From the NCBI GenBank assembly GCA_947474815.1, contig CANJJU010000013.1:1-33293 (forward strand): a stretch of DNA of 33,293 nucleotides, in the 5' to 3' direction. This DNA is from Chitinophagaceae bacterium. Lineage in GTDB: Bacteria > Bacteroidota > Bacteroidia > Chitinophagales > Chitinophagaceae. Position 1 is the stretch's first letter. Each line of letters starts with the position of its first letter. Of the stretch, positions 12,055 through 14,929 are shown in pieces. The notes below the pieces were generated by a model, which saw only the letters and a program-made list of their open reading frames with translations, did not search any database and was not told the origin of the DNA. A program made the translations under genes and the position numbers.

Positions 12055-12582
12055 TTATGCTTCTGTGTTTTCTTCAGTAGCAGCTTCTGTTGACTCAGCA
12101 GGGGCAACTGTTTCAGCAACTTCTGCAGAGGCTTTCTTCTTAGCTCCAGAACGACGCGTTGTTTTCTTAGCTGTATCAGCAGATTGCGCTGTTCCTTTAC
12201 CATAGATTTCGTTAAAATCAACGAGTTCTATCATTGCCATTTCTGCGTTATCGCCGATACGAGCACCTAGTTTGATGACACGGGTGTATCCACCAGGGCG
12301 ACCAGCTACTTTTGGAGCTACTACAGTAAAAAGTTCTTTTACTGCTTGCTTATCATTTAAATAACTGAAAACGATGCGATGATTGTGCATAATCAACTCC
12401 TTGGTAGAAGTTGCTTTTGTTTTGGTAATAATTGGCTCTATATAAGTACGCAATGCTTTTGCTTTTGCAAGAGTAGTGGTAATTCTCTTATACGTAATCA
12501 ATTGGCAACCTAAGTTCATCAACAATGCCTTTCTGTGAGAGGCTGTTCTGCTTAAGTTATTTTTTTTATCTCCGTGACGCAT
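12055..12582 (-). CDS. rplQ: 50S ribosomal protein L17
   Basis: Large-subunit protein near the exit tunnel. The core (residues 1 to about 125) begins [20 protein letters not shown] and contains [28 protein letters not shown] tail of about 45 residues rich in Ala, Glu, Lys and Thr follows, making 175 aa against about 120-127 in E. coli; long tails of this kind are usual in Bacteroidota L17. It is the last gene of the alpha operon, 68 bp after rpoA, with a small hairpin in that gap and an intrinsic terminator behind it. Confidence 0.97.
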
Positions 12583-12650: not shown

Positions 12651-13646
12651 TTATTCGTCGTCTAATTTAAGTTTACTTAAATCCATTCCGAAACTCAATC
12701 CTCTTTCGTGTAATACTTGATCGATTTCACTTAAAGATTTTTGACCAAAGTTTCTGAATTTCATCAAGTCTTCTTGTTCGTATTGAACCAATTCACTTAA
12801 TGAATTGATTTTTGCTGCTTTCAAGCAATTGAATGCACGAACAGATAAATCAAGATCTTCTAGTGGAGTCTTCAACATTTTACGTAATTGTAAAGTTTGC
12901 TCGTCAACTAAATCTTCTTTTTTATCTTCTTTGGTATCAAAAGTGATGTTTTCATCAGTGATGATCATCAAATGTTGAATCAAAATACGGCTTGCTTGTT
13001 TAACAGCTTCTTCTGGATGAATTGTTCCGTCAGTTACTACGTCGATGATTAATTTTTCAAAATCAGTACGTTGTTCAACCCTTGTATTTTCTATCAAATA
13101 CTTCACATTCTTAATGGGAGTATAAATAGCATCTACAGGAATATATCCAAAATGAGAACTTTTTTCTTTATGCTCTTCTGCAGGAACATATCCACGACCT
13201 TTTCCGATAGTAATTTCGATGTCTAGTTTTGCGCTAGCATCCAAAGTACAAATCATTAATTCAGGATTCATCACTTCAAAAGCAGGAGAAGCTTCACCAA
13301 TCATACCAGCGGTAAAATCAGTTCTATTTTTTAATGATAGAGAAATCTTTTCAGTATTAACATCATGATCTACTTTCAATTTAAAGCGAACTTGCTTAAG
13401 ATTTAGGATCATTTCAGTTACGTCTTCAGTCACACCTTTGATGGTTGCAAATTCATGATCCGCACCAGCTATATTGATTCCAATGATAGCATAGCCTTCA
13501 AGTGAATTTAACAAAACTCTGCGCAAAGCATTTCCGATGGTTACACCATACCCTGGTTCCAGGGGACGGAATTCGAATTGAGCTTCAAAATCAGTTGCTT
13601 TCTGAAGAACGATTTTATCTGGTTTAACAAAATTAAAAATAGCCAT
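12651..13646 (-). CDS. rpoA: DNA-directed RNA polymerase subunit alpha
   Basis: Assembly scaffold of RNA polymerase. The 331-aa protein has the N-terminal dimerisation domain (about 1-235; EPGYGVTIGNALRRVLLNSLEG) and a C-terminal DNA-binding domain (about 265-325; LDLSVRAFNCLKAAKINSL and KFRNFGQKSLSEID) joined by an acidic linker. It lies 30 bp downstream of rpsD in the usual alpha-operon order and precedes rplQ. Confidence 0.98.
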   Translation of the reverse strand: MAIFNFVKPDKIVLQKATDFEAQFEFRPLEPGYGVTIGNALRRVLLNSLEGYAIIGINIAGADHEFATIKGVTEDVTEMILNLKQVRFKLKVDHDVNTEKISLSLKNRTDFTAGMIGEASPAFEVMNPELMICTLDASAKLDIEITIGKGRGYVPAEEHKEKSSHFGYIPVDAIYTPIKNVKYLIENTRVEQRTDFEKLIIDVVTDGTIHPEEAVKQASRILIQHLMIITDENITFDTKEDKKEDLVDEQTLQLRKMLKTPLEDLDLSVRAFNCLKAAKINSLSELVQYEQEDLMKFRNFGQKSLSEIDQVLHERGLSFGMDLSKLKLDDE

Positions 13647-13676: not shown

Positions 13677-14282
13677 TTATTTACTGTACAATTCTACAAT
13701 TAGTTGCTCCTTGATATTCTCTGGAACACTTTCCCTTTCAGGATAAGCGATGAAAGTACCTTTCAATTCGCTCTCGCTCCATTCTAGCCAACTAAATTTT
13801 GGATTTTTACCACGAACATTGCCTGTAATAGCATTGTTAGCAGCACTTTTATTTTTAAGACCAATTTTATCACCTGGCTTACAGCTATAAGAAGGTACGT
13901 TTAACACATCACCATTAACGGTTACATGCTTATGACTTACCATCTGACGAGCAGCCTGACGACTTGGTGCAATACCCATTCTGAATACAGTATTATCCAA
14001 ACGAGCTTCTAATAATTTGATTAGATTTTCACCTGTAACACCTTTTCTACGAGCAGCTTCTTCAAATGTTCTGCGGAATTGTTTTTCCAACAAACCATAA
14101 GTGTATTTTGCTTTTTGCTTTTCTTTTAGCTGAACACCATATTCACTCAGTGTTTTACGCTTTTTAGTACCGCCGTGTTGACCGGGAGGGTTACTGTTTT
14201 TAGTTAACCACTTACCATTTCCGGTAATGGGTTCTCCGAATCTGCGGGAGATTTTTGTTTTGGGGCCTGTATAACGTGCCAT
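13677..14282 (-). CDS. rpsD: 30S ribosomal protein S4
   Basis: Primary 16S rRNA-binding protein that starts 30S assembly; in E. coli it also represses its own operon. The 201-aa protein begins [18 protein letters not shown] without the zinc-type cysteine set. The S4 RNA-binding domain (about 92-155) carries [20 protein letters not shown] and [18 protein letters not shown]. It ends with the usual C-terminal block [14 protein letters not shown]. The 88-nt gap before it can fold into a pseudoknot on the mRNA, discussed separately. Confidence 0.98.
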
Positions 14283-14293
14283 AATTTGATTGG

Positions 14294-14347
14294 TGACCTT
14301 TTATTGTCGATGCATCATTGTAAAGGTCATTTAAAATGAATAATGCA
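14294..14347 (-). promoter_or_regulatory. Candidate pseudoknot in the rpsD (S4) leader
   Basis: In mRNA sense (minus strand), stem 1 is TGCATTATT (14347-14339) with AATGATGCA (14319-14311): eight Watson-Crick pairs and one U-G. Stem 2 is TGACCTTTA (14329-14321) with TAAAAGGTCA (14303-14294), nine pairs with one bulged A. The order of strands is that of an H-type pseudoknot, with loops of 9, 1 and 7 nt. The structure ends 11 nt before the rpsD ATG. Pairing is seen in the sequence; folding and S4 binding are inference. Confidence 0.5.
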
Positions 14348-14370
14348 CCCGTTAAAAAATAATATTGATA

Positions 14371-14784
14371 CTATACTCTTCTCTTTTTTGGAGGACGACA
14401 ACCATTGTGTGGCAATGGAGTTACATCTTTAATGATGGCTACTTCTAATCCGCTTTGAGACAAAGAACGAATGGCGCCTTCGCGACCACTACCCGGACCT
14501 TTCACATATACATCTACTCTTTTCAATCCAGCATCTATTGCAGTTTTGGCTGCATCAGAACCAGCCATTTGAGCTGCATAAGGAGTATTTTTTTTGCTTC
14601 CTTTGAAACCCATTTTTCCAGCTGAAGACCAAGAAATTACTTGTCCTTGCTTATTGGTTAAACTAATAATAATATTGTTAAAACTAGCAGTAACGTGAGC
14701 ATCACCATGTGGTTCTACTTTTACTACTCTCTTTTTTGAAGCTGCTTTCGCGCTTTGAACTTTCTGTCCTTGTGCCTTTGCCAT
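14371..14784 (-). CDS. rpsK: 30S ribosomal protein S11
   Basis: Platform protein of the small subunit that contacts mRNA near the E site. At 137 aa it is slightly longer than E. coli S11 because of a lysine- and alanine-rich N-terminus. Family blocks are [54 protein letters not shown] and the end [17 protein letters not shown]. It is separated from rpsM by an unusually long 149-nt gap that contains hairpins. Confidence 0.98.
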
Positions 14785-14815
14785 AATTTAATTAATAGAT
14801 GATCTTAAAAAATAA

Positions 14816-14929
14816 CTTCGAAAATTCGAAGCTGAACCAACCCTCCTGCCGACTTAAGCGATCCGGCGCTGATTCAAAATATACAAGTCGATATAAACAG
14901 CAATACCGGAAGATTCACCACCGGTATTG
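14816..14929 (-). promoter_or_regulatory. Structured spacer between rpsM and rpsK
   Basis: Read on the minus strand, a perfect 9-bp hairpin CAATACCGG/CCGGTATTG (14929-14901, 11-nt loop) starts four bases after the rpsM stop. GCCG/CGGC (14867-14848) follows, and then CTTCGAA-TT-TTCGAAG (14831-14816), which is followed by TTATTTTTT. The last hairpin plus T-rich tract resembles a weak terminator or attenuator. TATATTTTG (14883-14875) resembles a stretched -7 element. Confidence 0.4.

Follow-up and report, generated by a model that had tools for sequence, protein, structure and literature searches.

A conserved pseudoknot before rpsD in Chitinophagaceae, a probable S4 operator in the alpha operon

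In E. coli, ribosomal protein S4 represses the alpha operon via a pseudoknot in the mRNA at rpsM, and both in this species and in B. subtilis it is well established that leaders of the operon have S4 as their ligand (PMC10931766, PMC7247131). Does the corresponding operon of Chitinophagaceae have an S4 control site of its own, at another place and with another structure? The question is raised by the gap between rpsK and rpsD in a Chitinophagaceae bacterium (contig CANJJU010000013.1; the whole stretch of 33,293 nt that was analysed is called the window below). An earlier note on this DNA had described two interlocking stems in that gap and had suggested that they might be an independently evolved S4 control site in Bacteroidota.

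The rpsK-rpsD gap and its interlocked stems

The identities of S4, S11, S13, RpoA and L17 were confirmed with NCBIfam. Their genes all lie on the minus strand of the window in the mRNA order rpsM-rpsK-rpsD-rpoA-rplQ, which is the order of the E. coli alpha operon, as had been stated earlier. The rpsD ATG is at 14282-14280 (minus strand). The relevant genes and the gap are as follows.

12055..12582, minus strand: rplQ (L17), downstream and possibly co-regulated (NCBIfam confirmation)
12651..13646, minus strand: rpoA, downstream and possibly co-regulated (NCBIfam confirmation)
13677..14282, minus strand: rpsD, encoding the presumed repressor S4 and presumably the first regulated gene (NCBIfam confirmation)
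14283..14370 (88 nt), minus strand: rpsK-rpsD intergenic leader holding the pseudoknot (sequence; sole covariance model match of the genome)
14371..14784, minus strand: rpsK (S11), upstream gene (NCBIfam confirmation)

The interlocked stems described earlier are confirmed in this gap, with one correction of their length. Two stems of 9 bp had been given; stem 2, in which TGACCTTTA pairs with TAAAAGGTCA, does have its one bulged A, while stem 1, in which GGTGCATTATT pairs with AATGATGCATC, is 11 bp long, with a G-U and a G-C pair added. Reading along the mRNA, the parts are these.

14339..14349, minus strand: stem 1, 5′ strand GGTGCATTATT (11 nt); sequence, with covarying pairs 25-63, 27-60, 28-59 and 29-58 of alignment A1
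14330..14338, minus strand: loop 1, CATTTTAAA; its ATTTT(A) core is almost unvarying across Chitinophagaceae
14321..14329, minus strand: stem 2, 5′ strand TGACCTTTA; sequence, with covarying pairs 46-80 and 48-78 of A1
14320, minus strand: loop 2, a single C; sequence
14309..14319, minus strand: stem 1, 3′ strand AATGATGCATC; sequence and covariation
14304..14308, minus strand: loop 3, GACAA (5 nt), or TCGACAA (7 nt) with a 9-bp stem 1
14294..14303, minus strand: stem 2, 3′ strand TAAAAGGTCA (one bulged A), 11 nt from the rpsD start codon

The two stems interlock: stem 1 encloses one strand of stem 2 (5′) in its loop, and the other strand of stem 2 (3′) follows after stem 1. Each stem pairs into the loop side of the other, and a simple A-form estimate, which asks for about 5 nt in loop 1 and about 4 nt in loop 3, allows both loops to span the stems, as in an H-type pseudoknot. 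The loop lengths of 9, 1 and 7 nt reported earlier hold for a 9-bp stem 1, and loop 3 shortens to 5 nt with the 11-bp form; the distance of 11 nt from the end of the structure to the rpsD ATG was likewise read correctly. None of 60 dinucleotide shuffles of the gap reached its best interlocked helix pair. The nested minimum-free-energy fold of the single sequence is unexceptional (z = -1.0), a value that says nothing on the pseudoknot because the folding program cannot draw pseudoknots.

Covariation and distribution in Chitinophagaceae

The loci sampled were rpsD of 54 relatives, 80 further genome contigs, and class- and phylum-wide samples. Alignment A1 comprises 84 non-redundant Chitinophagaceae leaders, aligned with MAFFT with no use of structure. 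Cells of the pseudoknot were paired in 89.9% of cases, compared to 75.3% in shuffled data, and 224 cells had changed on both sides, compared to 65. The covariation score was 0.414, compared to 0.172 for shuffled data and at most 0.123 when the partners were slid by 1-3 columns. Significance was assessed with an APC-corrected G statistic against a null in which Fitch-inferred substitutions were re-scattered along a FastTree tree; this test was modelled on R-scape and is our own implementation, not R-scape itself. The top seven among 3403 column pairs all belong to stem 1 or stem 2, and six pairs have E ≤ 0.05 against this phylogeny-preserving null, four in stem 1 (25-63, 27-60, 28-59 and 29-58) and two in stem 2 (46-80 and 48-78). 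Compensatory changes in both stems, which the earlier note had asked for as support, are present across the family, and the gap holds a conserved RNA structure with covariation support, as is expected of an r-leader. That the pairing is mere chance complementarity in an AT-rich gap, as the unremarkable nested fold of the single sequence might have suggested, now has a negligible probability: both stems covary across the family, the shuffle tests were passed, and the alignments already refute it.

A covariance model that treats stem 1 as pairs and the remainder as sequence only gave a single match in the window genome, at 14280-14364 (73.6 bits); of 150 genomes from the family, 110 had exactly one match each. 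When checked against the rpsD coordinates of the same genomes, all 110 matches end on the rpsD start codon; the element occupies this position exclusively and has the consistent placement before a ribosomal protein gene that characterizes r-leaders. The leaders of the 40 genomes with no match were retrieved and read, and were not scored as losses; two of them have no rpsD 5′ end. In most of the 40 the architecture is retained and stem 1 has diverged, a typical sequence being ..CCGGATC..TTTTACGATTTTTAAATGAGACGG..AAAAATCG... Stem 1 shows covariation within this divergent branch, at columns 39-79 and 43-75 among others. In stem 2, the pair 62-97 alternates between TA and CG in a few sequences, which is not significant alone.

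Altogether, the pseudoknot is kept at rpsD in 143 of 148 evaluable Chitinophagaceae genomes. The five genomes with no pseudoknot are two of one genus (G066 and G454), two of another (G382 and G463), and one from a doubtful contig (G393). The loss in two genera indicates that the pseudoknot is not essential. Uncompensated loss of pairing with rpsK-rpsD adjacency kept, the pattern that had been named as contrary to the proposal, was not seen family-wide and was confined among the 148 genomes to these two genera and the doubtful contig.

A pseudoknot finder was also applied to the leaders. Its unrestricted run sometimes chose other interlocked helices in these AT-rich gaps, and it was therefore rerun limited to the start-codon side. 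In this form, it scored 135 of the 146 distinct leaders of the family better than their 200 shuffles each at p < 0.05, compared to 4 of 34 gaps of comparable length from other families. In two leaders (L226 and L229) the pseudoknot was missed by the restricted finder and is readable by eye.

Some family members have a long form of the rpsD leader (L018, L024, L062, L077, L091, L102 and others), in which an outer helix, TTCATTT/AAATGAA, surrounds the pseudoknot. This helix has 6-9 bp and lies about 7-9 nt 5′ of the ATG, and its outermost pair varies among A-T, T-A and G-T. Some apparent extensions of stem 2 in this subtype cannot all coexist at the observed loop lengths; because an extended stem 2 would be strained in this way, AAATGAA may in fact pair within the outer helix instead. 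Long-form leaders also have an extra small hairpin upstream, for example GAATCG-CCATA-CGGTTC or GAGCC-AATTT-GGTTTC.

Known S4 leaders and the proposed control by S4

The element is absent outside the family. In a class-wide search of 247 genomes, the covariance model matched only the five positive Chitinophagaceae genomes and none of the 240 genomes of other Bacteroidia families. In other families of Chitinophagales the rpsK-rpsD gaps are often short (many 12-46 nt) and lack the element. Rfam 15 gave no match at the Chitinophagaceae rpsD leader at gathering or permissive thresholds. RF03141 had no match in the window or in 20 family relatives at its threshold, while it matched the positive controls, Flavobacteriales-type leaders (L141, L146, L147, L149 and L150); RF03139 had no match at its threshold in the window and family relatives, while it matched its own controls (L171 and L178). 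The best score of RF00140 was 15.1 bits (threshold 38), at rpsM and not at the rpsD leader. The Alpha_RBS pseudoknot is placed at the rpsM start codon, whereas the element described here precedes rpsD. The absence of an RF00140 match at this leader agrees with the earlier remark that the alpha-operon pseudoknot of E. coli has a different sequence. The literature searched, which was mainly open-access, held no report of a pseudoknotted S4 leader from Chitinophagaceae.

Two S4 leaders from Bacteroidota, RF03141 and RF03139, were published in 2020 by Eckert and Weinberg and have in common only that they are hairpins (PMC7247131). The S4-Flavobacteria leader RF03141 resembles the present element in that it belongs to Bacteroidota and is a predicted S4 leader immediately 5′ of rpsD-rpoA-rplQ, but it is a 33-nt hairpin with an internal loop and strongly conserved sequence, has no crossing stem in its model, and occurs in other families (PMC7247131). 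The S4-Bacteroidia leader RF03139 is also predicted before rpsD, but consists of a 34-nt hairpin whose 3′ tail, CGCGGCUG, is conserved (PMC7247131); this type of leader was not found at rpsD in Chitinophagaceae. In E. coli, RF00140 is an S4-linked mRNA pseudoknot in the same rpsM-rpsK-rpsD-rpoA-rplQ operon and acts at translation initiation; it differs in being upstream of rpsM and in forming a more complex structure at the rpsM start codon. S4 binding has been shown for Firmicutes leaders and predicted for those of Fusobacteria, but these have another structure and an rRNA-mimicking GUAA motif (PMC7247131) that is not seen here, GUAA not being prominent in the family consensus. In the mycobacterial S15 (rpsO) leader, a pseudoknot 5′ of the initiation site lets a ribosomal protein repress its own translation (PMC10931766), as is proposed here, although protein, sequence and lineage are all different. 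Because S4 leaders before rpsD have been published in Bacteroidota (PMC7247131), the site is already known in sister lineages and, measured against Rfam 15 and the literature searched, only the structure in Chitinophagaceae is new. The suggestion of an independently evolved control site stands insofar as the element is unlike both RF00140 and the Bacteroidota S4 hairpins; its range has to be narrowed from Bacteroidota at large to one family.

Other gaps in the wider samples have features of their own. Two genomes of another family (L116 and L117 in G057 and G036, family f2) have a different pseudoknot-like arrangement, with stems TATCCTTTCG/CGAAGTGGATA and AACTT/AAGTT. In other classes of the phylum (L192-L196 and L199-L200), rpsK-rpsD gaps of about 90-170 nt have group-specific motifs (AAGCCCGGTNACGG..CGTTTGTT and TCTTCGGGTGCACTTT..CCCCGAAAGC) and look like further unrelated rpsD leaders with no Rfam name. 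The gaps of family f61 (L173 and L182) are rich in hairpins (GGTGCGG..CCGCACC), unlike those of other families. In the flank of one relative (L051:3598-3679, minus strand) there is a match to the Rfam Flavo-1 sRNA at 56.3 bits.

The rpsK-rpsD gap probably carries an independently evolved RNA operator: by way of this H-type pseudoknot, S4 would repress its own synthesis. Here we infer S4 as the ligand, repression as the outcome, translation as the level of control, and an effect on the downstream genes. S4 in excess of its 16S rRNA sites would bind and stabilise the pseudoknot. The folded form would cover the 30S landing site at rpsD, because across the family the 3′ strand of stem 2 ends at a median distance of 11 nt from the start codon (range 0-20 nt, 20 nt being the finder's maximum). 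Initiation at rpsD would be lowered, either by direct exclusion of the 30S subunit or by trapping of an inactive 30S, and translation of rpoA and rplQ behind rpsD would perhaps be lowered too. Control at the level of translation within the polycistronic mRNA is likely, because the pseudoknot takes up most of the 88-nt gap and hardly leaves space for a promoter. Scans for promoters performed no better than chance. Initiation in Bacteroidota does not depend on Shine-Dalgarno pairing; in Flavobacterium johnsoniae, mRNA structure close to the start codon tunes it with no Shine-Dalgarno sequences involved (PMC6847099).

Instead of S4, an r-leader in this gap could sense a small molecule or another protein of the operon (S11, S13, L17 or the alpha subunit of RNA polymerase). 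The element sits inside a cluster of several genes, the ligand within an operon is often not the product of the nearest gene (PMC7247131), and the same family has a separate structured leader before rpsK. On the other hand, all 110 covariance model matches lie directly at the rpsD start, S4 is a known ligand in two model bacteria and is predicted for leaders that occupy this place in other Bacteroidota, and no additional copies were found before metabolic genes in any genome searched; a ligand other than S4 is thus unlikely. It is slightly less probable again that the pseudoknot is constitutive and has no protein ligand, serving to fix the rate of rpsD initiation, to insulate it from ribosomes ending on rpsK, or to protect or process the mRNA. 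Its intergenic position beside a start codon would suit such a role, and start-codon structure does tune translation in this phylum (PMC6847099). Fixed tuning, however, needs neither two long compensated stems nor a near-invariant loop 1 ATTTT, and the element is missing from other families that share this gene order, in which the gaps are often of 10-40 nt. Leaders that act as transcription attenuators are used by B. subtilis and other bacteria, and folding could in principle decide whether RNA polymerase stops before rpsD. This is very improbable here: attenuation is disfavoured because no intrinsic terminator or similar site was found in the rpsK-rpsD gap, the 3′ strand of stem 2 is A-rich with no T run after it, and the element abuts the rpsD start codon. 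Autoregulation by S4 at rpsD remains the preferred reading.

A second leader before rpsK and the meaning of the rpsD pseudoknot

The rpsM-rpsK spacer (149 nt; element at approximately 14785-14889, minus strand) is also strongly conserved in the family. Its consensus is GACTTA..TGAATCA-RCGCCGGATAGC..TAAGTC-GGCAGGAGGG-TTGGTTCA, followed by a variable hairpin and by AAGATYACCTA shortly before the rpsK ATG. The helices GACTT/AAGTC and TGAATCA/TGGTTCA cross, with a core of CCGGAT..GGAGGG. In an alignment of 44 sequences the crossing helices are at columns 17-22/60-65 and 36-41/79-84; one pair, 40-80, reaches significance, and several more are highly ranked. The spacer had no Rfam match. The same operon and family have a second, previously unreported structured leader before rpsK, which is apparently pseudoknotted as well. 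A pairing of GGAGG with ACCT within it was considered and dropped, only about three pairs being possible. Also inside this leader, just before rpsK, is a terminator-like hairpin, AGCTTCGAATTTTCGAAGTT, followed by ATTTTTT (14814-14833, minus strand); relatives have a covarying hairpin at its place.

The motif GATYACCT occurs near the rpsK ATG in 98 of 107 family leaders and was absent before rpsK in the other-family genomes that were read and in G066. In the genus of G066 (leaders L134 and L256) and G454 (L240) the rpsD pseudoknot is lost; because G066 has neither the rpsD pseudoknot nor the rpsK leader, a joint loss of both controls is suggested for this genome. We take the rpsK leader to resemble the 3′ tail of 16S rRNA, GGAUCACCUCC, on the basis of the conserved GATYACCT near the rpsK start and the conserved GGAGG. 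One possible, if doubtful, extension is that the alpha operon of Chitinophagaceae has two family-specific, independently evolved pseudoknotted leaders: an S4 operator at rpsD, and an rpsK leader that senses S11 and imitates the 16S rRNA 3′ end. The literature searched held no record of S11 as an r-leader ligand.

The pseudoknot leader at rpsD is real, conserved, family-wide and unreported in Rfam 15 and the literature searched, and it is a new structural form of a known kind of regulation. S4 autoregulation is already thought to have several origins with unrelated RNAs. The Chitinophagaceae pseudoknot would be another, structurally distinct S4 solution, in a phylum where relatives use plain hairpins or nothing at this place, and the convergent evolution of a single RNA-protein contact becomes directly testable. 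The family-wide alignment is sufficient for a new Rfam-type entry. The rpsK leader nearby suggests that the operon has more control points than are known, and the rpsD element would provide a pseudoknot operator for bacteria that initiate translation without Shine-Dalgarno pairing.
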